IMG/VR virus record: IMGVR_UViG_3300033233_000006
Span: 62,001 to 126,000 of that record
Direction: 5' to 3' (one strand)
DNA length: 64,000 nucleotides
Origin: a virus
How positions within the stretch are numbered: position 1 is the first letter of the stretch; every line of letters begins with the position of its first letter. Position numbers and translations under genes: made by a program. Below the pieces are notes generated by a model. That model did not search any database. It saw only the letters and a program-made list of their open reading frames with translations, and was not told the origin of the DNA. Shown one piece after another: positions 42,088-60,889 of this stretch.

Positions 42088-42096
42088 GGTCTCTCC

Positions 42097-42663: not shown

Positions 42664-42685
42664 GTTCGCTTCCCTTCGACTCGTC

Positions 42686-42710
42686 AACACCCGACCACGG
42701 AGGAGTTGCA
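42686..42710 (-). promoter_or_regulatory. Bipartite element TGCAACTCC-N11-GTGTT, copy 1
   Basis: On the minus strand, TGCAACTCC (42710-42702), 11 bases, GTGTT (42690-42686), then TGACGAGTCG. It lies 22 bases upstream of the leftward operon start. See the other copies at 42820, 44988, 47751, 57192 and 60842. Confidence 0.6.
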
Positions 42711-42819
42711 GGTCGCGAGTTGAATCTCTCAAAGCGTTCTACCCCGGCCCCCTAAGAGTAGAACGGGTGAGTCGAAGGAACCTGACAGAGAGGTAGAACG
42801 GTGGAGTGGAAGTAAGGGA

Positions 42820-42844
42820 TGCAACTCCTCGGCGTTCATGTGTG
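42820..42844 (+). promoter_or_regulatory. Bipartite element TGCAACTCC-N11-GTGTG, copy 2
   Basis: TGCAACTCC (42820-42828), 11 bases, GTGTG (42840-42844), 20 bases before the preferred GTG start at 42865. With copy 1 on the opposite strand it makes the 201-base gap 42664-42864 a divergent control region. The gap also holds TAGAAC boxes at 42755 and near 42804 (plus strand) and one on the minus strand near 42735. Confidence 0.6.
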
Positions 42845-42864
42845 AGGAGAGCGGAGGTCTCACA

Positions 42865-45057
42865 GTGATCGAGAAGTGCTTCGGAGTGGTCGCGGGGCTC
42901 GCGTGCGGCGACGCGTTGGGTGCCCCGACCGAGTTCATGCGGGTGCCGGAGATCCGAGAGCGCTATGGCGCCAAGGGGATCACCGATCTCTCGCAAACAA
43001 ACGGCAGATTCACCGACGACACTCAGATGGCTGTCGCGCTCGCTCTCGGGCTCCTCGACGCGGCACAGGAAGCGGCCAAAACGAACGCGACCCCGATTGG
43101 GACGCGAGCCACCATGAACCAGTCGGCTTTCGTCATGCCACACGTCGCGAAGCGCTTCGCGGAGTGGTCGGGCTGCTACGACGATCAGACCGAGGTGCTG
43201 ACCGATCGCGGATGGTTGCTCTTCAAGAATCTGACCAAAGAGATGCGCGTGGCGACTCTCAACCCCGAGACGCACGCCCTGGACTACGAGCACCCCAAGT
43301 TGATTCAGGACAAGGTCGGACCGCCCGAGATGATCCAGTTCAAGCACGCATCGCTGGATCTACTCGTTACGCCGAATCATCGCATGTACGTGACCCGTCC
43401 TTCGGACAGGTCTCGGTTCCACTTCGTCGAGGCGGGCGACGCTCCTGGCACTTGGGTACGGGCCAAGCGCGACGCGGCTTGGCGACACGACGATGTCGAG
43501 TGGTTCGAGCTGCCGAGCGTCGCGTGGGAAAGCAAGTTGAAGCCGGAGCCGCCACGCCTCCTTCCGATGGACGACTGGTTGGAGTTCTTGGGCTATTGGC
43601 TGTCCGAAGGTCACGTCTCGGGCTATAAGCCGCGTGGCGACGGGTTCGACTACAAGGTTGGCATCTCGCAGTTGGCCGGTGAGAGGTGCGAGGCGATGAC
43701 GGCGTGCGCGGAGCGGATCTTCACGGCCAGAACCCGTGCGCTCGCTACCAAGACTGGTTCCATCCGCCGCATCCAGATATGCAACAAGCAGCTGCATCGT
43801 TACCTCTTGCAGTTCGGGAAGGCGCGGTCGAAGTTCGTTCCCGACTACGTCAAGAACTGCTCCGCGAGGCAGATCAGCATCTTTCTCGACGCGCTGTGGG
43901 ACGGCGACGGCTCTCGCGATGTGAACGGGCGTTGGGAGCGCTACTCCACGACATCGGTGCGGCTGGCCGACGACGTTCAAGAGTTGCTTCTAAAGGTCGG
44001 CCTGGCCGGTCGAGTCACCGGCTACGCCGCACGGGTGGGTAAACCGGCGTGGCAAACGGCCTACCGAGTCGGGGTTTACCGAGAATCGCATCTCCGACCG
44101 TGTCTCTGGAGCCAGGCTTCCCCGCGCAAGGCGTGGCGACCTGAGCGCGTTCCCTACACGGGGCGCGTCTACTGCTGCACCACGACAAACGGCATCCTCT
44201 ACGTCCGAAGGAACGGCATCCCAGTGTGGTGCGGGAACTCTCCCGAGAACAACCGGGCACCGGGCAACACCTGTATGGCCGCGTGCCGGCAGCTTCGGGC
44301 CGGCGTGCCGTGGGACAGGGCCGGGATCGAGGGCTCGAAGGGGTGCGGGGCGGCGATGCGCGTGGCTCCGATCGGGCTGCTCTACTCCGACTTCGTCGCG
44401 CTCGGTCGTGTGGCTCGGGCGAGTGCTCTCTCGACGCACGGGCACCCCGTCGCGGCGCAGGCGGCGCACGCAGCAGCGCTCGCCGTCCGGCTCCTCGCGC
44501 TCGGCTTCAACCCGGAGTTCCTCGTCGGAACCCTGGTCTTCGAGCTGAAGATGAACGGCGGGATCGACGACGACTTCGAGATGCTGCTCGGTCGCATCGA
44601 ACACGCGGTGCGCCTGACCCTCCGGGGTGTCAAGGCGCCGGAGGAGATCCAGGTGCGGGTGGGAACCCACCCGGGTGCGCTTGGCGTGGCGTGGGTCGCC
44701 GACGAGGCGGTCGCGTGCGCGCTCTACTGCTTCCTGCTCGCCCACGCCCGCGACGAGGGCTACGTCGAGACGGTGCGCTACGGCGCCAACACCGATGGCG
44801 ACAGCGACAGCATCGCATGTATTGCTGGGAGTTTTGCCGGGGCGCGCTGGGGCATGACCGCCCCCAAGGGTGTGCCCGAGGCGTGGGCTACCGGAGTCGA
44901 AGACGCGGAGAAGCTCAGTCTTCTCGCCACGCGGATCTACGCCGTAAGTCTTCTCATGGACAGCACTTCGACTCCCGCGCTTCCCGATGCAACTCCGGCC
45001 AACTCGGGTGTTGACGAGTCGAACCGTTCGACGGGAACGGACACGATCAAGGAGTGA
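42865..45057 (+). CDS. ADP-ribosylglycohydrolase interrupted by an intein
   Basis: The extein (about 375 residues once the intein is removed) is a DraG/ARH-type hydrolase that removes ADP-ribose from modified targets. It shows GLACGDALGAPTEF at the start, FTDDTQMAVALALGL (Thr-Asp-Asp that binds magnesium), SPENNRAPGNTCM, STHGHPVAAQAAHA and TDGDSDSIACIAGSFAGARW (second metal site). GTG at 42865, with GGAGGT upstream, gives the natural N-terminus; an ATG at 42838 is less likely because it overlaps the regulatory element. An intein occupies 43174-44238. The C-terminal 25 codons overlap a regulatory element for the next gene. Confidence 0.9.
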   Translation: MIEKCFGVVAGLACGDALGAPTEFMRVPEIRERYGAKGITDLSQTNGRFTDDTQMAVALALGLLDAAQEAAKTNATPIGTRATMNQSAFVMPHVAKRFAEWSGCYDDQTEVLTDRGWLLFKNLTKEMRVATLNPETHALDYEHPKLIQDKVGPPEMIQFKHASLDLLVTPNHRMYVTRPSDRSRFHFVEAGDAPGTWVRAKRDAAWRHDDVEWFELPSVAWESKLKPEPPRLLPMDDWLEFLGYWLSEGHVSGYKPRGDGFDYKVGISQLAGERCEAMTACAERIFTARTRALATKTGSIRRIQICNKQLHRYLLQFGKARSKFVPDYVKNCSARQISIFLDALWDGDGSRDVNGRWERYSTTSVRLADDVQELLLKVGLAGRVTGYAARVGKPAWQTAYRVGVYRESHLRPCLWSQASPRKAWRPERVPYTGRVYCCTTTNGILYVRRNGIPVWCGNSPENNRAPGNTCMAACRQLRAGVPWDRAGIEGSKGCGAAMRVAPIGLLYSDFVALGRVARASALSTHGHPVAAQAAHAAALAVRLLALGFNPEFLVGTLVFELKMNGGIDDDFEMLLGRIEHAVRLTLRGVKAPEEIQVRVGTHPGALGVAWVADEAVACALYCFLLAHARDEGYVETVRYGANTDGDSDSIACIAGSFAGARWGMTAPKGVPEAWATGVEDAEKLSLLATRIYAVSLLMDSTSTPALPDATPANSGVDESNRSTGTDTIKE
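43174..44238 (+). mobile_element. Intein with LAGLIDADG homing endonuclease (in the ADP-ribosylglycohydrolase)
   Basis: 355 residues. It begins with the splicing Cys in CYDDQTEVLTDRGW (block A), has a block B-like LDLLVTPNHRMYV, two LAGLIDADG helices (LEFLGYWLSEGHV and IFLDALWDGDGS) and ends RRNGIPVWCGN, with Ser as the next extein residue. The penultimate residue is Gly, not the usual His. It is inserted between SG and SPENNRAPGNTC, at a conserved active-site loop. It belongs to the same family as the intein at 51830. Confidence 0.9.
44988..45012 (+). promoter_or_regulatory. Bipartite element TGCAACTCC-N11-GTGTT, copy 3
   Basis: TGCAACTCC at 44988-44996, 11 bases, GTGTT at 45008-45012, then TGACGAGTCG exactly as in copy 1. 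It lies within the last codons of the glycohydrolase gene and 49 bases before the next start, so the nucleotide pattern is kept although it is also coding. Confidence 0.55.
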
Positions 45058-45061
45058 AGCC

Positions 45062-45463
45062 GTGACCACGCCGATCGCGCTCAACCTGCCGCTCCTCTCT
45101 CAAGAGGACGCCAAGACGCTCAACGAAGCGCTCGCCGACGCTCAGGCGGGCGCGGTGGTCGAGATCGCCGTGACCTACACCAAGGTCACAGCGACGCCGG
45201 CCCGCGTCCCGGGCGAGGACTTCCGGCCTCTTCTCGGTGCCACCGAGGACACGCTGATCGGCGTGGTCAAGAAGGTCTCGACCGGGCGCAACGGGCCGTA
45301 CGTCCTGATCGACGCGACGCTCACTCGCGCTCCGCTCGGGCAGGATAAGAAGATCAACCCCGAGAAGGTCGGCTGGGCGACGATCAAAGGTAAGGGGATC
45401 AAGGCGTGCCAGGTGCTCAAAAACTCGGCGGAAGACGCTCGGCGGAAGAAGGCTGCGCAGTGA
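45062..45463 (+). CDS. Hypothetical protein, 133 aa
   Basis: GTG start with AAGGAG upstream. The sequence (NLPLLSQEDAKTLNEALADA, VVEIAVTYTKVTATPARVPG, LLGATEDTLIGVVKKVSTGR) suggests a small beta-rich domain with a basic end. No family recognised. It overlaps the next gene by four bases. Probable control is from bipartite element copy 3. Confidence 0.7.
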   Translation: MTTPIALNLPLLSQEDAKTLNEALADAQAGAVVEIAVTYTKVTATPARVPGEDFRPLLGATEDTLIGVVKKVSTGRNGPYVLIDATLTRAPLGQDKKINPEKVGWATIKGKGIKACQVLKNSAEDARRKKAAQ

Positions 45464-46269
45464 CCCGCTACGACTATTACAACGTGAAGCTCCCGGAGGG
45501 CGAGGCGCCCTTCGAGACGCGCGAGCAGGTCCGGGCCGCGTTCATGCAGCTCGCGATCAAGCTGGAGCCGCTCATGCGCCGCGCCCGGGTCGACTGGGGG
45601 AAGCCGGCAGAAGGCTCGCCGCTCGGCGAGGGTGAGGCGAGGGCGCTCAACAACGAGGTGCGCCGGCTGAACCGCGTCGTCGATAGGCTCGCCAAGGATG
45701 TGGTCGAGGGGATCGCCGCGCTCAAGCCGCCAGCCGAGGTGAACTACGCGCCCGAGGTGGACCGCGCGCTGGAAGACTACGTCGGCGACATCTACGACTT
45801 CGTCTGGAACAAGCCCGACCACGAACTGATCCCGCTCGCGATCGCAGTGCTCAACAAGGCCGGCTACGAGGGCGACACCGAGAAGGAGATCCTCAAGTCG
45901 CTTGCCGAGGTCGACAGCGACTCATACGACCGGGACGCGCGGTGGGCCAGGGAGCGTCCCGAAAAGAAGCCGCCCACGGACAAGCGCAAGATCCACGAGT
46001 GTCCGCGGTGCGAGACGGACGGCGAGCTTCGCGTGCCAGGCTCCAACCCACACCGACGCGAGGTGTGCAAGCGCTGCAACGGTCGCGGCTACGTCTTCCA
46101 GCTCGGGCGACCCCGCGACTGCGAGTACGGGATGACGAACGAGGGGAAGCTCGCCCTCAACGCCGGTCAGCCGTGGACCGAGCTGGACGAGGCGAGGGTG
46201 ATGCGCGAGGTCTACGACTACGACGAGGCCGAGATCGAGAGAGCGCTCGCGGAGTGGAGGGCGGCATGA
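45460..46269 (+). CDS. Hypothetical protein with zinc-ribbon
   Basis: GTG at 45460 overlaps the previous stop. 269 residues. N-terminal 150 residues are helical and charged. A zinc ribbon follows: HECPRCETDGELRVPGSNPH then EVCKRCNGRGYVF, i.e. C-x2-C and C-x2-C with a DnaJ-like CxxCxGxG second half. The C-terminus is acidic. A nucleic-acid-binding or adaptor role is plausible. It overlaps the next start by four bases. Confidence 0.7.
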   Translation: MTRYDYYNVKLPEGEAPFETREQVRAAFMQLAIKLEPLMRRARVDWGKPAEGSPLGEGEARALNNEVRRLNRVVDRLAKDVVEGIAALKPPAEVNYAPEVDRALEDYVGDIYDFVWNKPDHELIPLAIAVLNKAGYEGDTEKEILKSLAEVDSDSYDRDARWARERPEKKPPTDKRKIHECPRCETDGELRVPGSNPHRREVCKRCNGRGYVFQLGRPRDCEYGMTNEGKLALNAGQPWTELDEARVMREVYDYDEAEIERALAEWRAA

Positions 46270-46502
46270 CGCAGACCTGCGCGAGCTGCAAGCACTGGGA
46301 CGGGACCGCTCCCGACTTTGGTACTTGCAAGAAGGCGATGAGCACCAGCAGCGGTCGAGCGGTCGGCTTTCCCACGAAGGCGGTTGCTGTGCCCACCGGC
46401 CCCGACGGTCTCCGCTTCACGACGCCCGGTAACTTCGCGGTCTTGGAGACAGCGCACGATTTCGGGTGCAGCCAGTTCGGGCAGATCGGGGTGCCGACAT
46501 GA
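46266..46502 (+). CDS. Small Cys-rich protein, 78 aa
   Basis: ATG at 46266 in overlap with the previous stop. CASCKHW, GTCKK and FGCSQF give four Cys in the order C-x2-C ... C ... C, a pattern of small phage zinc proteins (CxxCKHW ... GxC ... FGCxxF). Its stop overlaps the ATG of the inserted HNH gene, which took over the original start of the downstream gene. Confidence 0.65.
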   Translation: MTQTCASCKHWDGTAPDFGTCKKAMSTSSGRAVGFPTKAVAVPTGPDGLRFTTPGNFAVLETAHDFGCSQFGQIGVPT

Positions 46503-47116
46503 AGCTCGAAGATGCGGTCGCACAGGGAATCCCGAGCTACGGACGCCTGACGATCACCGGACCGGCGCCGCCCGGAAAACGCGGAAGGCGCCGGGTTCGA
46601 GTCCGTTGCTCGTGTAACGAGCTGGTCGTCGCCGTGTCCGACTTGAAAAGTGGTAATACGAAAAGCTGCGGATGTCTTGTGCGAGAGCGCATGACGAGGC
46701 ACGGGATGTGGAAAAGCCCGGAGGCTGCGGCATGGCGTCAGATGAACCACCGGTGCCCGAATGGGAATAGCGAGTCTTACGCCGACTACGGTGGTCGCGG
46801 TATCAAGGTCTGCGAGCGGTGGCGTGAGAGCTTCGAGGCGTTCTTCGCCGACATGGGACCGCGGCCAAGCGCGCATCACTCCCTCGATCGCTACCCCAAC
46901 AACGATGGAAACTACGAGCCTGGCAACTGCCGCTGGGCGACCGCCAAGCAACAGGCGCAGAATCGCCGAGACAACGTTCGGCTCACCGTCGACGGAGAGA
47001 CTCTGACGGTTGCCGAGTGGTCGAGAAGGTCGGGGGTTCCCGACCGAACGATCCGGGGCAGACTCACCGCCGGTTGGACCCACGAACAGGCAATAAGGCG
47101 GATGGAGACCCGATGA
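46499..47116 (+). CDS. Free-standing HNH endonuclease (SLDR family) fused to a captured gene start
   Basis: 205 residues. It begins MKLEDAVAQ, which copies the beginning of the next gene (MRLEDAVSQ) but with different codons, then continues with the family's zinc-like part (VRCSCNELV ... SCGCLVRER), YADYGGRGIKVCERW, the catalytic SLDRYPNNDGNYEPGNCRWA and one helix-turn-helix module (ETLTVAEWSRRSGVPDRTIR). The ATG overlaps the stop of the upstream gene, i.e. the ancestral coupling site is now used by the endonuclease. Confidence 0.88.
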   Translation: MKLEDAVAQGIPSYGRLTITGPAPPGKRGRRRVRVRCSCNELVVAVSDLKSGNTKSCGCLVRERMTRHGMWKSPEAAAWRQMNHRCPNGNSESYADYGGRGIKVCERWRESFEAFFADMGPRPSAHHSLDRYPNNDGNYEPGNCRWATAKQQAQNRRDNVRLTVDGETLTVAEWSRRSGVPDRTIRGRLTAGWTHEQAIRRMETR

Positions 47117-47829
47117 GGCTTGAGGACGCCGTCTCACAAGATGTAATCAACCGGACCTACGCCACGCTTCGCGCGACGCTTCGCGAGGACTGCTGCATAG
47201 CGGCCTCGACCATCTTCGCCGCTGTCCTCAAGAACCTCGGCTTCCGCGCTGAGCTGGTTAGCGTGCGGCTCTCGATCTTCAACCCGGTGTTTGCCAGGTG
47301 GCTTGTTGCGAACGACTGGCGCAATCCGTCCGAGGACGAGGTGAAGAAGCTCAAAACGGAAGGGGCGCGCGTCGTGGTCGTCGGTGACGGAGGAAAGCCG
47401 GAGCCGGGAAAGTGGCCGGGCCACCTCGTCACCGCCGTCCACCCCAGGCGCGGCCAGGGGTCGGGCTACCTCATCGACCTCTCCGCGCCGCAGGCGAATC
47501 GCCCGCGTAAGGAAATCAAGGTCGCGCAGCCCATCCGTATCGAGATGTCGGCGGAGCGGCTCCACGCGTTCATCGACGGCAAGATCGCCGCTCGCGGGCA
47601 GCGCACCGACCAGAGCGTCGTCGACTACTACGTCAAGAAGGGCGATGCCTCCTACCAGGTCTCGCTGGACTGGGCCGAGCGTAAGACCCGATACGGAGAG
47701 CACATCGACGAGCTGACTAAGGGCATTCGTGAGTTCGTCAGGGCGGGGGCTGCAACTCCTCACGCTCCGGGTGTTGAAGGGACGAGCGCCGACGCAGGAG
47801 CGCAAGAAGACCAGGTCCCGAAGGTGTAA
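47113..47829 (+). CDS. Hypothetical protein, possible papain/transglutaminase-like fold
   Basis: 238 residues. The N-terminal half has DCCIAASTIFAAVLKNLGF (Cys at a helix start), GHLVTAVHPRRG (His in a strand) and YLIDLSAPQ (Asp), the order Cys-His-Asp seen in transglutaminase-like and NlpC/papain-type folds; this is a pattern match only. The first nine residues repeat those of the upstream HNH gene. The C-terminal 35 codons contain bipartite element copy 4. Confidence 0.6.
   Translation: MRLEDAVSQDVINRTYATLRATLREDCCIAASTIFAAVLKNLGFRAELVSVRLSIFNPVFARWLVANDWRNPSEDEVKKLKTEGARVVVVGDGGKPEPGKWPGHLVTAVHPRRGQGSGYLIDLSAPQANRPRKEIKVAQPIRIEMSAERLHAFIDGKIAARGQRTDQSVVDYYVKKGDASYQVSLDWAERKTRYGEHIDELTKGIREFVRAGAATPHAPGVEGTSADAGAQEDQVPKV
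47751..47775 (+). promoter_or_regulatory. Bipartite element TGCAACTCC-N11-GTGTT, copy 4
   Basis: TGCAACTCC at 47751-47759, GTGTT at 47771-47775, followed by GAAGG. It lies in the 3' end of the preceding reading frame and upstream of the tRNA-like element and the 47993 gene. Confidence 0.55.
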
Positions 47830-47904
47830 GGTCCCGAAGCGGACCGCCCGTGATACGGCGGCGAGTGACGGGTAGCACGTCGACCGCAGCCACCGCCCGA
47901 AGAT

Positions 47905-47971
47905 GCCCCGTTGGCTCGGGGCAGGAGCGGGTGGGGTCGAAGGGAAGCCGGTTCGATTCCGGTCGGGGCCA
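47905..47971 (+). ncRNA. tRNA-like element without a normal anticodon arm
   Basis: In the gap 47830-47992: acceptor-like strands GCCCCG (47905-47910) and CGGGGCC (47964-47970), a D-arm-like GCTC-GGGGCAG-GAGC, and a clear T arm GCCGG-TTCGATT-CCGGT. The middle (GGTGGGGTCGAAGGGAA) cannot form an anticodon stem and the total is about 67 bases, too short for a tRNA. It may be a degenerate tRNA or a tRNA-mimicking RNA such as a bacterial Y RNA module; the motif GTCGAAGG agrees with the Y RNA consensus GNCGAAN0-1G. Two GGTCCCGAAG repeats lie just upstream (47814 and 47830). Confidence 0.4.
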
Positions 47972-47992
47972 TCCACTCACGAGGTGCAACCC

Positions 47993-48337
47993 ATGAAGCT
48001 CGTCAGGACGAAGTTCTTCATCCAGACGTTCCGCCTCTCGAACCCCGAGCACCCGCTCTTCGCTCGTAGGGGCCGAAACACCAAGTGGTGGTCGTTCTGG
48101 GAGGGCATTCCGAACCAGACCCACTTCGACACCGAGAGCGAGGCGGTGCGGACCGCGCGTTACTTCACGAAGACGCGAGCCGGCCACGGCTACTCGGAGT
48201 TCGAGGTCGTGAGGGTCGAGGTGATCGAGCGTGAGACGGTCATCTGGCCGAAGCCCGACGTGGTCGCGCACCTCGCCCAGCTCGCTCCAGCCGTCTACGA
48301 GACGCCGGTCCCGGCGAGGGTAGCGGTGTCCAAGTGA
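47993..48337 (+). CDS. Hypothetical protein, 114 aa
   Basis: Starts MKLVRTKFFIQTFRLSNPEH and contains KWWSFWEGIPNQTHFDTESE and YSEFEVVRVEVIERETVIWP, a small alpha/beta protein with many aromatic residues. No family recognised. Four-base overlap with the next start indicates coupling. Confidence 0.65.
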   Translation: MKLVRTKFFIQTFRLSNPEHPLFARRGRNTKWWSFWEGIPNQTHFDTESEAVRTARYFTKTRAGHGYSEFEVVRVEVIERETVIWPKPDVVAHLAQLAPAVYETPVPARVAVSK

Positions 48338-48549
48338 AGGCGATCGACATCCTCAACGCCGACCGTGACGACGTGGACGCTCGGCTCATGAAGGTCAACG
48401 CCATGATGGAGAAGCTCGGCGGCTCAGAGCGCTGGTGGAAGCTCAAGTACGAGAAGAACGCGCTCGAATCACGACTGAGCAAGCTCGACCGCGAGCAGTC
48501 GGAGGCGGAGGAGAAGCGCGAGGCGCTCCGCGCACGCCAACGTGGGTAG
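48334..48549 (+). CDS. Small coiled-coil protein, 71 aa
   Basis: GTG start overlapping the previous stop. Heptad-like helical sequence (KVNAMMEKLGGSERWWKLKY; LESRLSKLDREQSEAEEKRE). No family recognised; probably oligomeric. Confidence 0.6.
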   Translation: MKAIDILNADRDDVDARLMKVNAMMEKLGGSERWWKLKYEKNALESRLSKLDREQSEAEEKREALRARQRG

Positions 48550-48561
48550 AACGTAGATCGC

Positions 48562-49305
48562 ATGGCCGAGACGAGCGTCGCTCCGAAGCACCGGCTTCTC
48601 GTCGTGGGTGGGCGCGACAACAACGTACCCGCCTGGGCCGAGGCCGCCTTCGAGGTGGAGCTGATCACCGGCGAGCAAGAGAGCGGTCGCGGAAAGCTCG
48701 AACCGAAGCAGGCCGCCGAGGCGGTGGTGATCCACCTCGACTACGTCTCGCACAACTACGCCGACCAGGCTCGGGAGTGGGCCGGGAAGTGGAACGTCCC
48801 GTGGTTCGGCGTGCGCAAGGGCTGGTCGAGCGCTGTCGACCGCGCCGCGCGCATGGGGCTCGCGTGGTTCGTCGACGCCGTCCAGCTTGGCGGCGAGGCT
48901 GTAGCCGGGAAGAACGAGCCACGCGCTGAGGAGGCCAAGCAGCTCGTCGAGAACGCCTGGAAGGATGCGGCCACCTACGCACAGGCTCGTGCCGCCGCTG
49001 CCGAGAAGCGTCTCGGGCAAGAGACCAAGAGGCGCGAGCAGATCGAAGGCGTGCTCGACCGGGTGAGGGGCGGAGCCGAGCAGCGCATCGTGAGCGAGAT
49101 CCGGCGTCGAGCGGCTGAGGTGCGAGCATCCGAGCACCAGCGACTCGGCCCCATCCGCAAGGCTTCAGCCGATCTGATCCGATCGGTCCGCAAGTCCCAA
49201 GAGGTCATCGTGACGGCGCAAAACGCGATAGCGTCAGCGCTACGGGACGTTGATCGGGCTCGCGGCGAGCTGAATCGGCTGCTTGATGACGAGCGCGTTG
49301 AGTAG
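48562..49305 (+). CDS. DUF2325-like domain protein with coiled-coil tail
   Basis: 247 residues. The first 95 residues (HRLLVVGGRDNNVPAWAEAA, AVVIHLDYVSHNYADQAREW, VPWFGVRKGWSSAV) follow the DUF2325 pattern: a VGG start strand, a VI-x-h-D-x-V-SH centre and a P-x-F-x-x-x-S end. The remaining 150 residues are a long charged helix. A TAGAAC box at 48547-48552 precedes the ATG by nine bases without a Shine-Dalgarno, so the message may be leaderless. Function unknown. Confidence 0.65.
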   Translation: MAETSVAPKHRLLVVGGRDNNVPAWAEAAFEVELITGEQESGRGKLEPKQAAEAVVIHLDYVSHNYADQAREWAGKWNVPWFGVRKGWSSAVDRAARMGLAWFVDAVQLGGEAVAGKNEPRAEEAKQLVENAWKDAATYAQARAAAAEKRLGQETKRREQIEGVLDRVRGGAEQRIVSEIRRRAAEVRASEHQRLGPIRKASADLIRSVRKSQEVIVTAQNAIASALRDVDRARGELNRLLDDERVE

Positions 49306-49327
49306 CGCCGCCATCGCGGGGTAGAGT
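49298..49327 (+). promoter_or_regulatory. Possible promoter for the HNH gene at 49335
   Basis: TTGAGT (49298-49303), 18 bases, TAGAGT (49322-49327). The GTG start at 49335 is seven bases further and lacks a Shine-Dalgarno, as in leaderless transcripts. Confidence 0.45.
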
Positions 49328-49334
49328 CTCGTGC

Positions 49335-49823
49335 GTGGCATCGAGCGCCGAGCGTCAACGTCGTTACAGGAAACGCCATCTAACGATGGTGCGGGCGCGA
49401 GATGCTGCGACCCATCGCCAGGCCCGACGCGATGGAACGGATTACGCCGAGCGGTGCCGCGCCGCCAAACGAACGCCGGCTGCGCGCTCCAAGCGGAACG
49501 CTGCCCGTCGTAAACCGGCGTCGCGCGTCGCTCAGGCGGCGTACATGCGCGAACAACGGACGCGACCCGAGTTCAAGCTCAAGGACCGAGCGCGCTCGGC
49601 GGTCAAGCGGGCTGTCAAGACTGGTCTCATAGCGGTCCCGCTCGCCTGTCAGCGCTGCGGTCGTGATCCGGGGACCGGCGCCGATGGCCGTCGCCTGCTT
49701 CGGGCTCACCATCGCGGCTACGACAAGGCGCACGAGCTGGATGTCCAATTCGTCTGTCCGACGTGCGACGGTGACTTGGAGCGTGCGCGCAAAAACACGA
49801 CGCTCGAACGGTGGAAACGATGA
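49335..49823 (+). CDS. HNH endonuclease-like protein (HH zinc type)
   Basis: 162 residues. A very basic N-terminal half with repeated R-x-x-R segments (ERQRRYRKRHL; ARSKRNAARRK; YMREQRTRPEFK) precedes a zinc-stabilised HNH-like core: CQRCGRDPG, LLRAHHRGYDKAHEL, FVCPTCDGDLERARK. The HH-x-x-Y and Cys pairs match HNH proteins that act on HH-D-Y sites. Its stop overlaps the methyltransferase start. No duplicated gene end was found here. Confidence 0.75.
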   Translation: MASSAERQRRYRKRHLTMVRARDAATHRQARRDGTDYAERCRAAKRTPAARSKRNAARRKPASRVAQAAYMREQRTRPEFKLKDRARSAVKRAVKTGLIAVPLACQRCGRDPGTGADGRRLLRAHHRGYDKAHELDVQFVCPTCDGDLERARKNTTLERWKR

Positions 49824-53836: not shown

Positions 53837-53837
53837 C

Positions 53838-54521
53838 GTGGCTAAACGGCTGTCCGATGAGCAACGAGCTTCCAGACGTGTTTACGCCCGCGCCTATTAT
53901 CGTCGATCGGGAACGAAGGAGAGTCGCGCTGCCTGGCGCGATCAAAACCGTCAAAAGATCAGAGATGATCAGCGTCGATACCACGAAAGGCGTGTCGCTA
54001 AGAATCCCAATTTCGGCAAGGAGGCGCGGGACCGGCGTCGAGCTAGATTAAAGGGCGCTGCGGGTCGACACACGCTAGACGACTGGAAACTCATTCTTGC
54101 TAAGTTTGACAACGAGTGCGCGTTCTGTGGGACGAGGGATGCCGTCAACAAAGATCACCTCGTTCCGCTGTGTCGCGGCGGAACTGATTGGCCTGAGAAT
54201 CTTGTTCCGGCCTGCAAAACGTGTAACGAGACGAAGGGCGGGAGAGACCCTGTAGTAGCGATCTCCCGGATCGCGACAGCGGGGCGCGCTCCGCGTCTTT
54301 TGGACTACCTCAAGAGCAGCCTCGCCCTACCCGGCAATCGGGTGAGAAGGTCGTATGAAAAGGTGAGTTCGGATGCGCTCTTGACTGAGGCAAAGAGGAT
54401 CAAGGCCGCCTTCGGAAAACTCACCGTTGAGCTACTTAACGCCCACTCGCGGTACGCTAGTTCCACGTACGAACGCCGCTTTGGTGGGATGACTGGGCTA
54501 AGGAAGACCATCCAGTGCTGA
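53838..54521 (+). CDS. Free-standing HNH endonuclease (canonical zinc HNH)
   Basis: 227 residues, GTG start one base after the kinase stop. A basic N-terminal half with several R-x-Y segments precedes ECAFCGTRDAVNKDHLVPLC and ENLVPACKTCNETKGGRDP, the canonical C-x2-C, D-H, N, C-x2-C HNH. The C-terminal 75 residues are helical. Its last codons overlap the beginning of a kinase fragment whose open frame extends back to 54461, indicating insertion into that gene. Confidence 0.85.
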   Translation: MAKRLSDEQRASRRVYARAYYRRSGTKESRAAWRDQNRQKIRDDQRRYHERRVAKNPNFGKEARDRRRARLKGAAGRHTLDDWKLILAKFDNECAFCGTRDAVNKDHLVPLCRGGTDWPENLVPACKTCNETKGGRDPVVAISRIATAGRAPRLLDYLKSSLALPGNRVRRSYEKVSSDALLTEAKRIKAAFGKLTVELLNAHSRYASSTYERRFGGMTGLRKTIQC

Positions 54522-54916
54522 TCTTCGCCGAGATTAACAACAAGCTCGGAACGATCGACGACCTCAACTGGGAGACCTACCTCCGGGGCTTCCAAGACTT
54601 CCAGACTTACCTCCCCGAGCCGGACATCTACGTCTTCCTCGATGCGTCGCCCGAAGAGTGCTACGCGCGCGTGAACAGGCGCGCACGACCGCAAGAGAAG
54701 GGCTCGGGCTTCGACGAGAAGGAGGAGGGCATCCCGCTCGCCTACCTCCAGACACTCCACGCCGGATACCAGCGCTGGATCGAGAAGGTCGCGCCGAGGA
54801 TGCAGCTCGTGAAGGTCGACTGGCAGGAGTACCGGCCCGTCGAGGAGACGTGGGCCGAGGTCGAGCACCGTTTCGAGGAGCGCAACCGCTTCACGCGCAG
54901 CCTCGTCGCTCCGTAG
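54515..54916 (+). pseudogene. C-terminal half of a second deoxynucleoside kinase
   Basis: From the GTG at 54515, 133 residues. It has LNWETYLRGFQDFQTYLPEP, DIYVFLDASPEECYARVNRR and LAYLQTLHAGYQRWIEKV, the second half of a dNK fold. The P-loop and DRS half are absent; the frame is open back to 54461 (WWDDWAKEDHPVLIFAEI) within the HNH gene, showing continuity of an older coding sequence. No P-loop segment lies in any frame between 53838 and 54515. It may be a remnant, or an old C-terminus displaced when the upstream kinase was replaced. Confidence 0.7.
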
Positions 54917-54963
54917 AAGTCGCGCTTCGGGCTTCCGCGGTGTGGTAGCCTTATCCGCACGAG

Positions 54964-55779
54964 GTGACTGTGCGAGCTGGGCGACTCGTTGCGATTCTTG
55001 CGGCCACGCTCGTCGCCACCGGCTGCACCTGTGGCGACGCGACCCGCGACCTCTCCTACGACCCGACGAGCGTCCCGATGGGCGTCTTCGATCTCCACAA
55101 GCCGAAGACGGCTCCCAGTGGCAAGCCGCTGCCGTGCGTGCTTCTGGTGCATGGGGGCGGTTGGATGAGCGGCGACAAGCGCGACATGGACGACTACGCC
55201 GACTGGCTCAACTGCCGCGGCTACGCCGCCGTCTCGATGAACTACCGGCTCTCGACGATGAAGCCATGGCCGGCTCAGTCCGATGACGTGCTCAGCGCCT
55301 TCAACCACCTTCGCGCCCACGCCGCCGAGCTGGGGATCGACTCCGACCGTATCGCCGTGAGTGGGATCTCGGCTGGCGCGCACCTCTCGATGATGCTCGC
55401 CCTTCGCGGCATGGGCGTTCGTCCCAAGTGCGCCATCGCGCTGAGCGGCGAGACGGATCTCGACAGGCCGCCGGCTGAGGTGATGGACAACTACAACGAC
55501 CTGATGACCAAGATCCTGGGTCACGGGCCACCCTTCGCCCACGGCGAGCTGCAAGCGATGTCGCCGATCAGCTACGTCCGGCAGGACGTGGCGATTCTTC
55601 TCGTTCATGCCGATGGCGACACGAACATCTACGTGAAGCAGGGCGATGTCATGGCCGCCGCGCTGTTGAGCGCTCACGCCAACTCGACCTACCTCCGACT
55701 CCACAGCGATTGCCACGGGCAGTGCTGGAAGGAGATCGGAGACAAGATCGAAGCATTCCTCGCCGCCAACCTGCGGTAA
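54964..55779 (+). CDS. Lipoprotein alpha/beta-hydrolase (esterase, BD-FAE-like)
   Basis: GTG start, about 271 residues. Signal peptide RLVAILAATLVATGC with lipobox (A-T-G-C). The catalytic parts are all visible: oxyanion HGGGWMSG, nucleophile GISAGAH (G-x-S-x-G), acid HADGDTNIY and the base His in SDCHGQCW. The overall order matches carboxylesterases of the BD-FAE/esterase-lipase group. A secreted, membrane-anchored esterase is unusual in a phage; it may remove acyl or acetyl groups from surface polymers, alter the surface to exclude other phages, or be cargo from a host. Confidence 0.8.
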   Translation: MTVRAGRLVAILAATLVATGCTCGDATRDLSYDPTSVPMGVFDLHKPKTAPSGKPLPCVLLVHGGGWMSGDKRDMDDYADWLNCRGYAAVSMNYRLSTMKPWPAQSDDVLSAFNHLRAHAAELGIDSDRIAVSGISAGAHLSMMLALRGMGVRPKCAIALSGETDLDRPPAEVMDNYNDLMTKILGHGPPFAHGELQAMSPISYVRQDVAILLVHADGDTNIYVKQGDVMAAALLSAHANSTYLRLHSDCHGQCWKEIGDKIEAFLAANLR

Positions 55780-55800
55780 GAGGAACCACCGAGGGCACCG

Positions 55801-56346
55801 ATGGCGACGAACAACGGCACGAAGCAGAGCGGGTCCACTACGATCAAGGGCAAGGGTGGCGCGAGTCCGTTCGTGATCAGCTACCGCCGGATCACGAAGC
55901 GACCGGTCTACGAGCGCGTGCGGAACTTCGTCGGCTTCCGTCGCATGTTCCTGAACGCCATCGTGAAAGCGCTCGACATCGTCGAAGACGTGTGCTTCGA
56001 GACCCAGAACGAGGTGGTCGATCCGGGCGAGCACACGGTCGTTCACTGGGCGATCGAAGTCGATGACCCGTGGGGCGTGAACAACGTGGCCGAGCTGACC
56101 GCCCGGCGCGTCCCGGACAAGCCCGGCTGTGGCGGGCACTTCGAGGTGATTCGCGTCATCGACGAGAAGGCCGAACGCGAGACGGCGTTGAAGCAAGCCC
56201 AGCCGGACGAACGCCCGACAGTCGCGCCCGCGGTCCTCGCCAAGCATCGTCCAGCTCAAGATGCGATCCGTCAGCGGATGCGCGAGCGACTCATCCAAGA
56301 GGGCCACTTCGACCCCGAAGCGGGGCCGCCCCCCAAGGACGACTGA
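55801..56346 (+). CDS. Hypothetical protein, 181 aa
   Basis: Gly/Thr-rich start (MATNNGTKQSGSTTIKGKGG), central alpha/beta part (FRRMFLNAIVKALDIVEDVC; HTVVHWAIEVDDPWGVNNVA; GGHFEVIRVIDEKAE) and a basic helical tail. No family recognised. It belongs to the nucleotide metabolism region. Confidence 0.65.
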   Translation: MATNNGTKQSGSTTIKGKGGASPFVISYRRITKRPVYERVRNFVGFRRMFLNAIVKALDIVEDVCFETQNEVVDPGEHTVVHWAIEVDDPWGVNNVAELTARRVPDKPGCGGHFEVIRVIDEKAERETALKQAQPDERPTVAPAVLAKHRPAQDAIRQRMRERLIQEGHFDPEAGPPPKDD

Positions 56347-56348
56347 TC

Positions 56349-56585
56349 ATGCGAGAGGTCTTCAAAGTCGACGGGACCGGTAACCGCCGAGTCCGCATGG
56401 CTGAGCTGCGCAAGGGCGACAAGTTCAAGATCGTCACCGACGATCCGAGGGACGGCCTCTACGGGCTCGGGCACGTCGTCTACACCGCCGGCAGCGACGC
56501 CTACGAGAGCAAGTACGCCGACGTGTGGGAGGTCGAGGTGGCGAGCGAGTTCGACAGCACGGCCACACGCCTATGCGCGAGCTGA
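56349..56585 (+). CDS. Small hypothetical protein, 78 aa
   Basis: ATG two bases after the previous stop. The sequence FKVDGTGNRRVRMAELRKGD and KFKIVTDDPRDGLYGLGHVV suggests a small SH3-like beta barrel. It overlaps the thymidine kinase start by 13 bases. Function unknown. Confidence 0.6.
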   Translation: MREVFKVDGTGNRRVRMAELRKGDKFKIVTDDPRDGLYGLGHVVYTAGSDAYESKYADVWEVEVASEFDSTATRLCAS

Positions 56586-57151
56586 TCGTCTTCACCGGGC
56601 CTGTGAGCGGTGGAAAGTCCACCCGCGCTGCCGCGGCGGCGGGACGGCTCCAGCGTCTCGGCTTCCACGTCGTCCTACTCAGGCCAACGCGATCCGTCCG
56701 CGCGCACGAGAAGCCCGGCCTGCTCGTCACAAAGACCGGAACCTCATTTCCGTCGGTCGAGGTCGACACGGCGGCTGAGATCGTTGACCGAGCCCGCGGC
56801 TACGATGCGGTGTGGATCGACGAGCCGATGCTGTTCCCCGACGAGCCTCTGGTCTTCGATGCGATCCAGACGATCCGCCGCGAGTCGACCGTCATCGTCT
56901 CCGGGCTCTCCGCCACGAGCGAGCTGGAGCCGTTTGGCGAGTCGATGCCCAAACTGCTCGCGGTGGCCGACGAGGTGACATCCCTCAAGGGAGACTGTGA
57001 TGCGTGCGGCGCGTTCGGAACAGCAACGCGCTCGGTCTGCCTCAAGCCCAAGACGGGTCAAGTGCTCGTCGGCGGCTCTGATGTTTACGAAGCTTGCTGT
57101 CCGGCATGCTGGCGAGCACGCGTCGAATCTCCAAAGGCCGCCGTCACTTAG
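56573..57151 (+). CDS. tdk: Thymidine kinase, TK1 type
   Basis: ATG at 56573, 192 residues, standard TK1 length. P-loop FTGPVSGGKSTRAAAA, WIDEPMLFPDE in the position of the TK DEAQF segment, VIVSGLSATSELEPFG, and the structural zinc lasso CDACGAFGTATRSVC ... CCPAC. Makes dTMP from thymidine for phage DNA synthesis. The replaced DEAQ (here DEPM) is a minor variation. Confidence 0.88.
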   Translation: MRELIVFTGPVSGGKSTRAAAAAGRLQRLGFHVVLLRPTRSVRAHEKPGLLVTKTGTSFPSVEVDTAAEIVDRARGYDAVWIDEPMLFPDEPLVFDAIQTIRRESTVIVSGLSATSELEPFGESMPKLLAVADEVTSLKGDCDACGAFGTATRSVCLKPKTGQVLVGGSDVYEACCPACWRARVESPKAAVT

Positions 57152-57191
57152 GGTCATGCGGTCCGCTCGAAAGTTTTCCTCTCGTAAGACC

Positions 57192-57216
57192 TGCAACTCC
57201 TCCTCGTTCTCGTGTT
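57192..57216 (+). promoter_or_regulatory. Bipartite element TGCAACTCC-N11-GTGTT, copy 5
   Basis: TGCAACTCC at 57192-57200, GTGTT at 57212-57216, 84 bases before the AAA ATPase start. The GTGTT box is part of an outer stem formed with AACACGAG at 57255-57262. Confidence 0.6.
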
Positions 57217-57262
57217 GGGTGAGCGAGGTTCGAGACGGTCTCGACCGAGCGACAAACACGAG
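57209..57262 (+). promoter_or_regulatory. Leader hairpin before the AAA ATPase gene
   Basis: Outer pair CTCGTGTT (57209-57216) with AACACGAG (57255-57262); inner pair CGAGAC (57231-57236) with GTCTCG (57238-57243), extended by GGT/ACC around one bulged T. It could be an RNA leader structure or a protein-binding palindrome. The 149-base gap 57152-57300 holds nothing else apparent except a TAGAAG box near 57270. Confidence 0.45.
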
Positions 57263-57300
57263 TCCAGGGTAGAAGATCCCTGTGTAGGAGATAGGTTCCC

Positions 57301-58395
57301 GTGAAGTTTAGCGAGTTGTGCCGCCTCATTCCGACGCTCGACGCGAGCGTTCCGATCTTCTTCCTCGGTCGTCCCGGCATCGGCAAGTCCGTGCTCTCGC
57401 GCACGATCGCGAAGCTCATGGGGCCCGAGGCGCGGATCGTCCGGCGCGAGCTGACCGGCCACCTCCCGGAAGACATGAGCGGTCTTCCGTTCCGTGAGGG
57501 GTCGTTCACGCGGTTCTGCCCGCCCGACTTCCTCGCCCGGCTCCAGAAGGGCTCGGGGCCGAACGGGAGCGACCCGGTCGGCGCTCTGATCCTCGAAGAC
57601 ATCACGCAGGCGCAGCGCTCGGTTCAGGTCGCGTGCTTCCAGCTCGTGCAGGAGCGGAGCATGGGCGACATTCAGCTCAGCCCGCACGTTCGGATCATTC
57701 TCACGGGCAACCGAACCTCGGACAAGGCCGGCGCCCGCGAGTTGCCCTCTCCGCTCCGCAACCGGGTGTGCGTGCTCTCGCTCGACCCGGACCTGGAGGA
57801 GTGGATGAACTGGGCGGGCGCCGAAGGGCTCCCGGGCGTGCTCGGCGGCTTCCTCCAGTACAAGCCGCAGTTCTTCTCGCAGCTCCCGTCCAACGCCGAC
57901 AAGGCGAACGGCCAGTTCTCCACGCCGCGCTCGTGGGAGAACGTCGGGCGGATCATGCTCACGCTCGATCCGAAGGCCGACCCGACGGGGCCGCTCTACA
58001 CGCTCGCCGGTGGTCTGATCGGCGAGGGCGTCGCGACGGAATTCGTCGCCTTCGTCAAGCTCCAGAAGGAGCTGCCGAACCCGAAGGCGGTCCTCGACGA
58101 CCCGGAGAAGGCCATGCCTTCGCCGCCGACCGAGCCGGACCGTCTCGCTGCGCTCGTCACGGCGCTCGGCGAGTACGCCGCCCGCCACCAGAACGACGAC
58201 AAGAAGCTCTACCTCAAGCTCCTGATCGCGCTCTCCCACGTCTCGGGGAAGACGCGCGAGGCGTGCGCCGCGGGCCTCACGGTCTTCCAGGCGAACGGAG
58301 GCAACGTCTCGAAGCTCTTCGACGCCGCTGCGGCGAATAAGAGCGATCCGAGGATTCTCGCAATCATAAAGCATTTTGCGGCTTCGGTTTCCTAG
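57301..58395 (+). CDS. MoxR-like AAA+ ATPase
   Basis: GTG start, 364 residues. Walker A FLGRPGIGKSVLSRTIAKLM, Walker B-like ALILEDITQAQRSVQVACFQ, a sensor 1 Asn in RIILTGNRTSDKAG and the arginine-containing PLRNRVCVLSLDPDLEEWM segment. Such ATPases act with VWA-domain partners, and one is encoded at 60890. The last 19 codons contain an excess of A/T-ending codons (AAT, GAT, ATT, GCA, ATA, CAT, TTT, GCT, GTT) unlike the rest, at the border of the HNH insertion. Confidence 0.85.
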   Translation: MKFSELCRLIPTLDASVPIFFLGRPGIGKSVLSRTIAKLMGPEARIVRRELTGHLPEDMSGLPFREGSFTRFCPPDFLARLQKGSGPNGSDPVGALILEDITQAQRSVQVACFQLVQERSMGDIQLSPHVRIILTGNRTSDKAGARELPSPLRNRVCVLSLDPDLEEWMNWAGAEGLPGVLGGFLQYKPQFFSQLPSNADKANGQFSTPRSWENVGRIMLTLDPKADPTGPLYTLAGGLIGEGVATEFVAFVKLQKELPNPKAVLDDPEKAMPSPPTEPDRLAALVTALGEYAARHQNDDKKLYLKLLIALSHVSGKTREACAAGLTVFQANGGNVSKLFDAAAANKSDPRILAIIKHFAASVS

Positions 58396-58423
58396 TTCTA
58401 ACAAGATCGGACTAGGCAAACCA

Positions 58424-58452
58424 TTGACTCCTGGGACGAGTAGTCGTATAAA
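58424..58452 (+). promoter_or_regulatory. Sigma70 promoter of the HNH gene at 58471
   Basis: TTGACT (58424-58429), 17 bases, TATAAA (58447-58452), followed by GGAGG (58461-58465) and ATG at 58471. It is AT-richer than its surroundings and appears to belong to the mobile gene. Confidence 0.75.
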
Positions 58453-58470
58453 CTCTTCTTGGAGGTCGAG

Positions 58471-59694
58471 ATGAGGGGCAAGGCTTACCCGACGATTCCG
58501 GTCGGTTCGATCATCGGACAACTTACGGTGATCGAACCGACCGAACAGCTCAGGGAGCGGGGACGAAAGCGGTACGGCTACAACTGCCGCTGCGAATGCG
58601 ACAGGGTCGTGTTTGCGCAAGCGACGAGTCTCATGAACGGCTCGACGAGGCGGTGCCGAGAGTGCGCTGACGCCAATCGCGGCCACCAGGCGGTGACGCA
58701 TGGCATGAGCGGAACACCCGGCTACTCGAACTGGCGACAGATGATCCGTCGGTGCCAGAACGACCCGCGTTACGTCGGACGCATCTCGGTGTGCGAACGC
58801 TGGCGTGTCGAAACGCCCAACGCCGTCCAAAACTTCTTCGCCGATCTTGGGCCGAGGCCAAGCCCAAGTCACTCCCTCGACCGCTACCCAAACGGTGCTG
58901 GAAACTACGAACCGGGCAACGTGAGGTGGGCCACAGCCAAGGAACAGGCGAACAACCTCTCGACGAATGTCCTGCTCACGGTGGACGGCGTGACGCTCCC
59001 GCTCGGTGCGTGGGCGGAGAGGGTCGATATGGACCCGCAGACCCTCTGGGCACGCCACAAGCTCGGGATGGACGACAAGACGGCGGTGACGATGCCCGTT
59101 CGCGCGCAGATCACCTCGCTCACCATCGACGGCGTGACTTGCACGCTGGAGCGATGGGCGCACAAGGCCGGAGCGGACGCGGCGGCGGTTACGCGGCGTC
59201 TGGAGAACGGCTGCGAGCCTAAGCTGGCGGTCTTCGCCGCCGGTCAGACGGTGACGGTCGGTCGCGACGGGCTTCCGAGCGCGATCATCAGCAACGATGA
59301 GGTCGTCGTCGAGACCCGGGCCGCGACGCCTCGCCGCTTCATTGCCAGGAATGGCTACCCCATCACCATCGACGGTGTGACGCGCAGCCAGAGCGAATGG
59401 GCGCGCATCGCCAACGTAACGATCGGAACGATCCGGCGCCGTCTGGCGCTCGGTCTCGATCCGAAGGCGGCGGTCTTCGCCAGGCCGGACCAGGGGCACG
59501 CCCTCGACGGCGGGATGCGCAACCAAAACCGAGCCGATTGCGTGCGGCTCACGGTCAACGGGGTGACCAAAATCCTGAGCGCCTGGTCGCGCGATACGGG
59601 CCTCTCGGAGAACTGCATCCGCAACCGGCTCAAGGCCGGTTGGACGCCGGATGAGGCTGTTCTCACCCCGTCACGAAAGGCCGGTGCGGTTTGA
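58471..59694 (+). CDS. HNH endonuclease (SLDR family) with four tandem HTH modules
   Basis: 407 residues. The HNH half matches the genes at 19376 and 46499 (CRCECDRVVF, GYSNWRQMIRRCQNDPRY, VGRISVCERW, SLDRYPNGAGNYEPGNVRWA). The C-terminal 240 residues hold four copies of a module of 40-60 residues: T-V/I-D/N-G-V-T-x5-W-A/S-x8-T-I/L-x-x-R-L-x-x-G-x-x-x-x-x-A-V. Examples are TVDGVTLPLGAWAERVDMD, TIDGVTCTLERWAHKAGAD, TIDGVTRSQSEWARIANVT and TVNGVTKILSAWSRDTGLS. The relatives have one. It lies behind the AAA ATPase with its own promoter. Its last codons overlap the next start. Confidence 0.85.
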   Translation: MRGKAYPTIPVGSIIGQLTVIEPTEQLRERGRKRYGYNCRCECDRVVFAQATSLMNGSTRRCRECADANRGHQAVTHGMSGTPGYSNWRQMIRRCQNDPRYVGRISVCERWRVETPNAVQNFFADLGPRPSPSHSLDRYPNGAGNYEPGNVRWATAKEQANNLSTNVLLTVDGVTLPLGAWAERVDMDPQTLWARHKLGMDDKTAVTMPVRAQITSLTIDGVTCTLERWAHKAGADAAAVTRRLENGCEPKLAVFAAGQTVTVGRDGLPSAIISNDEVVVETRAATPRRFIARNGYPITIDGVTRSQSEWARIANVTIGTIRRRLALGLDPKAAVFARPDQGHALDGGMRNQNRADCVRLTVNGVTKILSAWSRDTGLSENCIRNRLKAGWTPDEAVLTPSRKAGAV

Positions 59695-59906
59695 GCGACG
59701 GTGGCGGCGGCAAGCTCGATCCGAGCGAACTTCTCGCGTCGCTGCGGTGGGGCGTAGACAGCCTCATCACGAACTACGACGGCGAGCGTGTCTGGCTCAA
59801 GGCGAGCCTGGACGCCAACGGGAAGCGGAACGGTATCACCGACTGCTGCCTCGCCGAAGCCCCGTGCGAGCATCACGCGAAGGTCGCGGTCAGGGGCGGT
59901 AACTAA
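59691..59906 (+). CDS. Small hypothetical protein, 71 aa
   Basis: TTG start overlapping the HNH stop (TTGA). The sequence LDPSELLASLRWGVDSLITN and then GITDCCLAEAPCEHHAKVAV contains a C-C ... C-x-H-H cluster that may bind metal. The start is uncertain because the HNH insertion may have altered the original 5' end. Confidence 0.5.
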   Translation: MSDGGGGKLDPSELLASLRWGVDSLITNYDGERVWLKASLDANGKRNGITDCCLAEAPCEHHAKVAVRGGN

Positions 59907-59956
59907 GCGAAGGGTCGGTCGGGGTAGAACGACGGCTGGTCCGCGCGAAGCGCGGG

Positions 59957-60835
59957 GTGGGAGTGGTGGCGATCGTGACGACCATGGAAGACTTGACGGT
60001 GGTCGACGCGGTCGCCCTCCGTCGTTTCAACGAGGCGACCATGATCCGGGTGCTCGCGGCAGCTCACCGTCGCGAGACGGGTTACGGGCCGATCACCAAG
60101 AAGCGCGCGCGAGAGATCGCCCGGCGGGTCGCTGGCGATCGCTCCCTCGCGCGGGTCACCGACGCGCTCGTCGCCGAGGTGGCCCGGCAGAACGACGTAC
60201 TCGATGCGCGGCTCATCGTCCGCGCGGAATGCGAAGACCTCGACCACTACGACCCAGTCAAGGCCAACGAGCGGAACGAGGGCGACTACTCCAACGACGG
60301 CCACTTCAGGTCGTCGCGGCTCGGCGCGATCTTCGACCACCGCATGAGCCGCGACGGCTTCGAGAAGATCCTGCCGAGCAGCTACAGCTACTCGACGACC
60401 AACATCGACATCGCGATCGTCGCCAAGCAGGTCGTCGCCCTGATCGAGCCGCAGTGGCGATGCGACGCGAACGGGAAGACGCAGCGCCGGAAGGTGACGC
60501 GGTTCCTCGTCGTGGCACCGCGGACGCCGAGAGGTAAGCCGCGCGCAGTCAAGGTCGCGCCCGAGACAGAGTCGGTTGACGACGCGATCGAGTCCGTCAT
60601 GCCGTCAGCCGTGGTTGCGGCGATCAACGCGCTCACGCTCGGATTGGGGCACCCGCCCCACCTGTACTCCGGGGTAGAACTGGACTGGAAGGGGCGGCGC
60701 TTCGGCGTCTGGCACATGAAGATGCGCAAGTGGCACCCCTTCCGAAAGGTCGGAATCACGCCCGAGGGTGCGAGTAAGTTGGGCTGGGCCGTCATTCGAT
60801 TCGACGGCCCGGAATGGCTTCGGGTGCTCGCGTAG
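59957..60835 (+). CDS. Hypothetical protein, about 280-292 aa
   Basis: Several starts are possible (GTG 59957, GTG 59966, ATG 59984); a TAGAAC box lies at 59925-59930. The protein has ITKKRAREIARRVAGDRSLA, LDHYDPVKANERNEGDYSND and a C-terminal KMRKWHPFRKVGITPEGASK. It is acidic-basic mixed without enzyme motif. No family recognised. Between the ATPase and its likely VWA partner. Confidence 0.6.
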   Translation: MGVVAIVTTMEDLTVVDAVALRRFNEATMIRVLAAAHRRETGYGPITKKRAREIARRVAGDRSLARVTDALVAEVARQNDVLDARLIVRAECEDLDHYDPVKANERNEGDYSNDGHFRSSRLGAIFDHRMSRDGFEKILPSSYSYSTTNIDIAIVAKQVVALIEPQWRCDANGKTQRRKVTRFLVVAPRTPRGKPRAVKVAPETESVDDAIESVMPSAVVAAINALTLGLGHPPHLYSGVELDWKGRRFGVWHMKMRKWHPFRKVGITPEGASKLGWAVIRFDGPEWLRVLA

Positions 60836-60841
60836 CGTAGG

Positions 60842-60866
60842 TGCAACTCCTCGACGTTCGAGTGTT
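60842..60866 (+). promoter_or_regulatory. Bipartite element TGCAACTCC-N11-GTGTT, copy 6
   Basis: TGCAACTCC at 60842-60850, GTGTT at 60862-60866, then CTAGAGGCGGAGGTGAGG and ATG at 60890. It lies directly in the short gap before the VWA gene, 23 bases from its start. Confidence 0.6.
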
Positions 60867-60889
60867 CTAGAGGCGGAGGTGAGGTAGTT

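Follow-up and report, generated by a model that had tools for sequence, protein, structure and literature searches.

Genes led by the bipartite element

We analysed a 64-kb window (positions 62001-126000) of the 131,251-base virus record IMGVR_UViG_3300033233_000006 for a bipartite DNA element, TGCAACTC-N12-G[TGC]GT, that recurs before non-structural genes. Positions below are those of the window unless the record is named, and gene calls, which were made in this analysis, are approximate. The record has a G+C content of about 65% and encodes a Gp23-type major capsid protein, a T4-type portal, a prohead protease, a tail sheath, and baseplate proteins, together with 34 tRNAs called by ARAGORN; on the basis of these structural genes and the tRNAs, the phage is a T4-related myovirus. 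Its protein matches are spread over phages of several high-G+C bacteria, including Myxococcus phage Mx1 and Streptomyces and Mycobacterium phages, and do not settle the host.

Six copies of the element are present in the window at the coordinates given in a preliminary description of this DNA. Five of them are exact matches, and copy 2, which ends in GTGTG, has one mismatch. Copy 1 (42686..42710, minus strand) is followed after 22 nt by the start of the DUF6011 gene (42097..42663, minus strand), and copy 2 (42820..42844, plus strand) stands 20 nt before the ADP-ribosylglycohydrolase gene (42865..45057, plus strand), which contains an intein-like LAGLIDADG insertion. Copy 3 (44988..45012, plus strand) is located within the 3' end of the latter gene, 49 nt before a gene at 45062; two plus-strand genes follow it (45062-45463 and 45460-46269), the second of which has orthologues in an element-led unit of related phages. 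Copy 4 (47751..47775, plus strand) is located within the 3' end of frame 47113-47829, and the next ATG lies 217 nt downstream, after a tRNA-like stretch. Copy 5 (57192..57216, plus strand) precedes the AAA_5 ATPase gene (57301..58395, plus strand) by 84 nt, and copy 6 (60842..60866, plus strand) precedes the DUF2201 metallopeptidase/VWA gene (60890..62221, plus strand; Pfam assignment) by 23 nt. The earlier observations that three copies (42686 on the minus strand, 42820, and 60842) stand 20-23 bases before a start codon, that two (44988 and 47751) fall within the 3' end of a reading frame, and that two continue with TGACGAGTCG were all borne out. The absence of copies from the structural half is likewise true of the window, and the structural blocks of the whole record (about 28-45 and 62-101 kb) contain none.

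The tRNA-like stretch right after copy 4 (about 47905-47970) has an acceptor, a D-arm, and a T-arm recognisable by eye and an anticodon arm that is too short; neither ARAGORN nor Rfam made a call there. LAGLIDADG insertions resembling inteins or homing endonucleases occur in the ADP-ribosylglycohydrolase gene (42865-45057) and in a DNA methylase frame (49820-53119).

Spacing, orientation and placement in the record

The search of the whole genome that the preliminary description had proposed revealed 22 gene-facing sites with fixed spacing in the 131-kb record, and the pattern is commoner than in controls. In addition to the 6 sites in the window, 16 were found outside it, namely 15 minus-strand copies in the left arm (record 9.3-22.4 kb) and one at record position 56307. 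In the 64-kb window, 10 matches with up to 3 mismatches were obtained versus 3.14 expected, a count reached in 0 of 100 shuffles. Across the record, the exact pattern gave 8 matches versus 0 for the reversed-pattern control, and the search with up to 3 mismatches gave 31 versus 17. With up to 2 mismatches the record gave 23 matches, all but one of which (at 84299) begin with TGCAACTC. The invariance of the first box in the 22-site set is partly by construction, as the set was anchored on TGCAACTC; in the mismatch-tolerant search of the record, the variation falls outside this box. The combination TGCAACTC-N12-GTGT was found 20 times, and the other spacers from 8 to 17 gave 0 matches each, except for N10, which gave one. 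An unbiased search for dyads of 5 and 4 bases ranked TGCAA-N15-GTGT first in the whole record (20 copies versus 0.35 expected), and the same dyad was top-ranked within the left arm. Conservation extends beyond the boxes: position 18 is C in 21 of the 22 sites, position 31 is a purine and position 34 a G in all of them, and positions 35-36 are invariably purines, the last three columns partly representing the Shine-Dalgarno sequence.

TGCAACTCC alone is also found in the T-arm of several tRNAs, where the second box is absent; within the tRNA array at record 46.0-53.4 kb (L129) it forms the T-arm, five of these occurrences being within ARAGORN-called tRNAs. A scan of IMG/VR with the exact pattern returned at least 117 stretches, and each of the 80 that were listed contained a single match; since the pattern has 14 fixed bases, these are mostly chance matches, and they were not used. 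The extended pattern returned a single IMG/VR match (L162), judged to be due to chance because it is the only one in 41 kb and the contig has no protein match to this phage.

All 22 sites face the downstream gene. A called start on the same strand was found within 100 nt of 18 sites, compared to 1.5 (maximum 7) for random positions and 4.2 (maximum 11) after local same-strand jitter; the other four sites are accounted for by the tRNA-like stretch, a start call that was misplaced, and two short frames missing from the gene calls. At 19 sites the start codon, with its Shine-Dalgarno sequence, is located 18-35 nt past the element. This placement is also what would be expected of a leader or translation element, i.e., a start-associated sequence acting in the mRNA, either as a protein-binding site or by helping ribosomes to load, and there is a precedent in the start-associated sequences (SAS) of cluster K mycobacteriophages, which have been proposed to act in translation. 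However, the boxes are kept at the remaining three sites, where the next start is 49, 84, and 217 nt away, the first box is well upstream of the ribosome site, and the sites have no common RNA fold. Folding z-scores averaged +0.28 over the 22 sites and -0.21 over 21 sites from relatives, with no excess of structure, so that an RNA structure is unlikely and finds no support; an Rfam search of positions 42000-62000 gave three matches, all under the gathering scores. We consider a leader or translation element quite improbable.

The cognate element of the sister phages and its genes

Relatives of the phage were identified in IMG/VR via the tail sheath, the larger ones being G003 (160 kb), G006 (275 kb), G005 (102 kb), and G017 (52 kb); G003 and G006 were compared in part, using stretches of both records. 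When 22 tail-sheath relatives were searched for the element of this phage with up to 2 mismatches, 21 had no match and G008 had one weak match. In the comparison with relatives suggested in the preliminary description, the same genes in G003 and G006 were seen to be marked by a differently spelled element, GTGAGAA-N11-GTTGTTGRGAG, which was seen upstream of the AAA_5 orthologue in both. This cognate element was found 8 times in G003, 13 times in G006, 4 times in G005, and once in G017, and it is absent from this phage and from nine further relatives searched. Each of the 26 matches has at most one mismatch in a search that tolerated 3, and the reversed control gave 0 in those four records. The G005 and G017 sites duplicate those of G006 and G003, which leaves 21 distinct cognate sequences. 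The spacing is again fixed: in the examined stretches, GTGAGAA and GTTGTT were found 17 times at the 11-base spacing versus 0 at spacers of 7-10 and 12-15. In IMG/VR, the cognate pattern was confined to 6 contigs, comprising the four relatives, one contig identical to G003 in the compared pieces, and one with a distant protein match. When orthologous promoters are aligned, the TGTT box and the Shine-Dalgarno sequence match up by eye, but the upstream box differs.

Four of the genes directly led by the cognate element have a counterpart in this phage, namely those for DUF6011, ADP-ribosylglycohydrolase, a 458-aa left-arm protein, and the AAA_5 ATPase, and all four counterparts are led by TGCAACTC. 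For the genes behind copies 1, 2, and 5, the cognate element precedes the orthologous gene or unit in both G003 and G006, with a divergent pair of elements between the DUF6011 and ADP-ribosylglycohydrolase genes. A search for relatives with the 458-aa protein found none, and local tblastn gave distant orthologues (36%). We further compared the gene sets using the 62 genes of this phage that have a match in the examined G003 and G006 stretches, scoring an element up to 1,500 nt upstream and setting the start of the intein-bearing gene in the relatives by hand. A cognate element was present in a relative for 8 of 10 element-led genes versus 0 of 52 others (Fisher p 1.3e-8), or versus 0 of 16 when the structural blocks were excluded (p 2.9e-5). 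The two element-led genes without it are g8 (663 aa), which lies 1,495 nt from its element in this phage, and g144 (247 aa). In the relatives, three proteins are encoded further down element-led units, in second place: a phosphatase, the 45460-46269 protein, and DUF2201, whose gene immediately follows AAA_5. In this phage they belong to separate units with an element of their own.

Promoter reading, a presumed recognising factor and a second element

Many phages have motifs that recur close to start codons, and for most of these no function is established. We consider it likely that the element described here is a phage-specific promoter class in which the upstream box has been replaced and the gene set kept. 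A promoter is the best reading because the element has one orientation to the genes, a fixed spacing, and a placement before starts, and because a cognate element precedes the same genes in relatives; in being oriented, gene-proximal, repeated, and retained on the same genes, it behaves as a phage promoter class should. Such promoters would drive about 20 small units of non-structural genes, probably early or middle ones. TGCAACTC would serve as the upstream (-35/-30) contact, and GTGT[T/C] as the contact on the -10 side, together with a C that is nearly invariant three bases upstream of GTGT[T/C]. Transcription is predicted to start about 6-8 bases past GTGT[T/C], near the always-purine position 31, which would give a leader of roughly 12-20 nt containing the Shine-Dalgarno sequence. 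The upstream box would be read by a trans-acting factor, expected to be phage-encoded and to be either a MotA-like activator or a sigma factor that has escaped recognition, and the sisters would use GTGAGAA-N11-GTTGTTGRGAG for the same genes.

The preliminary description had likened the element to promoters of extracytoplasmic function (ECF) sigma factors. This likeness finds some support in this phage alone, where the AAC core lies 16 bp from the downstream box (AAC-N16-GT[T/C]) and resembles Streptomyces sigma-E promoters, which have AAC in the -35 region, separated from the -10 by 16-17 bp (PMC6767563). The sisters' element has AA followed by C, T, or A, with 13 from there to GTTG, and thus keeps neither the distance nor the final C, and the ECF sigma families PF04542 and PF08281 have no match in the whole record. 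The resemblance is weak. A host sigma factor of an alternative, ECF-like type could instead read the promoters, the two spellings then reflecting two hosts, and this would agree with the layout of the boxes in this phage and with the lack of a phage sigma factor from three families in the whole record. Against it stand the changed spacing from AAC in the sisters and the scan of an 84,980-species genome set, in which the cognate pattern gave only 5 scattered single matches and the extended pattern of this phage gave 0, although the host may be missing from this set. We regard a host ECF-like sigma factor as unlikely.

Several points weigh against the promoter class itself. Neither box resembles a host -10, and the fixed distance to the Shine-Dalgarno sequence at most sites fits a leader or translation element as well. 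No sigma factor or activator was identified with three sigma families in the whole record or in Pfam and PHROGs scans, which covered most, though not all, of the genes called. The 1,500-nt limit of the gene-set comparison was picked after the first cases had been seen, and direct leads only (up to 150 nt) give 4 of 7 versus 0 of 55. The G003 and G006 copies are not fully independent, because the two phages are 81% identical across 107 kb aligned.

The search for the presumed recognising factor covered several candidates. With PF04545, no sigma factor was identified in the whole record; of the best matches, those inspected in L213 and L214 look by eye like HNH-type frames, and the one in L212 is a 149-aa frame in G006. 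MotA and AsiA were not named among the best 25 families in the Pfam and PHROGs tables for the genes scanned. Myxococcus phage Mx1, which carries an annotated sigma factor, shares with this phage a TROVE protein (42%), but its sigma factor has no match in this record or in the examined G003 and G006 stretches (only one at E = 0.19), and Mx1 contains 0 copies of either bipartite element. The shared protein, of the TROVE/Ro60 RNA-binding type, is encoded at record 126481-128229 (L130 481-2229), and Mx1 provides its nearest annotated phage match. For the candidate g150 (55801-56346), the AlphaFold model (mean pLDDT 57, pTM 0.29) was too poor for a structure search. The 45460-46269 protein matches a Q-like antiterminator weakly (E = 0.039), and no weight was given to this.

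Among known systems, those close in layout include the T4 middle promoters, in which the MotA box is centred at -30, 12 +/- 1 bp from the -10 (PMC2988021). In this T4-related phage, too, a box of comparable length precedes a second box by about 11-12 bp, and the fixed N12 of TGCAACTC-N12-GTGT falls within the T4 range. In contrast to T4, the second box is GTGT[T/C] rather than the sigma-70 -10 (TAtaaT), the box sequence is unrelated, and no relative of MotA or AsiA was recognised within the scope given above. The Microbacterium cluster EC phage Quhwah carries 12 repeats of 18 bp located 22-30 bp upstream of starts (PMC7302621); their placement closely resembles that found here (18-35 nt at 19 of 22 sites), but the consensus is unrelated, and EC phages carry an annotated sigma factor, whereas none was found here with the three families. 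In cluster K mycobacteriophages, SAS and ESAS are oriented repeats before non-structural genes, the ESAS consensus varying between subclusters; the SAS is a 13-bp GGGATAGGAGCCC-like sequence that contains AGGAG and lies 3-7 bp before the start, in the position of the ribosome site, and ESAS are inverted repeats (PMC3203893). The element described here differs from SAS in sequence and in lying at least 18 nt before the start, and it is not an ESAS-type inverted repeat. Among the top matches listed from a library of open-access papers, there was no report of TGCAACTCC or GTAGAAC as a phage promoter motif, and the papers that came up for the motif strings were unrelated.

Within the promoter reading, the sisters mark the same genes with another spelling, and therefore the specificity of the factor and the boxes appear to have changed together. 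We tentatively propose that a phage-encoded RNA polymerase specificity factor, without recognisable homology to sigma factors or activators, may have changed its DNA-reading surface between the sisters. Some 20 promoters would have been rewritten (TGCAACTC versus GTGAGAA) with the gene set and geometry kept, and genes leaving an element-led unit would have gained an element of their own. Two sister lineages with the same genes, two spellings, and one layout point to a trans-acting factor and list its targets; if a switch of promoter specificity is confirmed, the elements would be compact and specific promoter parts.

A second element, GGGTAGAAC(G), occurs more often than expected in this phage and also in G003 and G006 (21 and 19 copies, respectively, versus 0.7 and 0.8 expected in the stretches of these two then examined), and is often located a few nt before ATG or GTG. 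At several genes it stands in tandem with the bipartite element: GGGTAGAACG (42735..42744, minus strand) is 24 nt upstream of copy 1, GTAGAACG (42793..42800, plus strand) is 19 nt upstream of copy 2, and GGGTAGAAG (57267..57275, plus strand) lies between copy 5 and AAA_5. GGGTAGAA, which has 19 sites in the whole record, is kept upstream of AAA_5 in all 4 aligned sequences (this phage and three relatives). GGGTAGAAC looks like an ordinary host-type early promoter, perhaps one serving leaderless messages. Its presence bears on the repressor operator considered in the preliminary description: the bipartite element could be an operator for a phage repressor or activator, overlapping otherwise undetected host-type promoters, and GGGTAGAA[C], a separate promoter-like element, does lie no more than about 80 nt away at several sites, among them 17822, 56343, 104736, and 119275 of the record. 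However, most copies have no GGGTAGAA nearby, and an operator fits poorly because the element is non-palindromic, without symmetry, and strictly held in a single orientation; we rate this explanation the least probable of those considered.

Near-perfect palindromes form arrays in two of the relatives, TGCCACCAT.ATGGTGGCA in G003 (L166 9440-10280) beside a 79-aa frame and GTGCCCCCAT.ATGGGGGCAC in G006 (L170 5389-6411) beside a 76-aa frame. The half-sites differ between the two phages, both frames resemble an Xre-type helix-turn-helix regulator by eye, and the arrays are possible operator or partition-site arrays.

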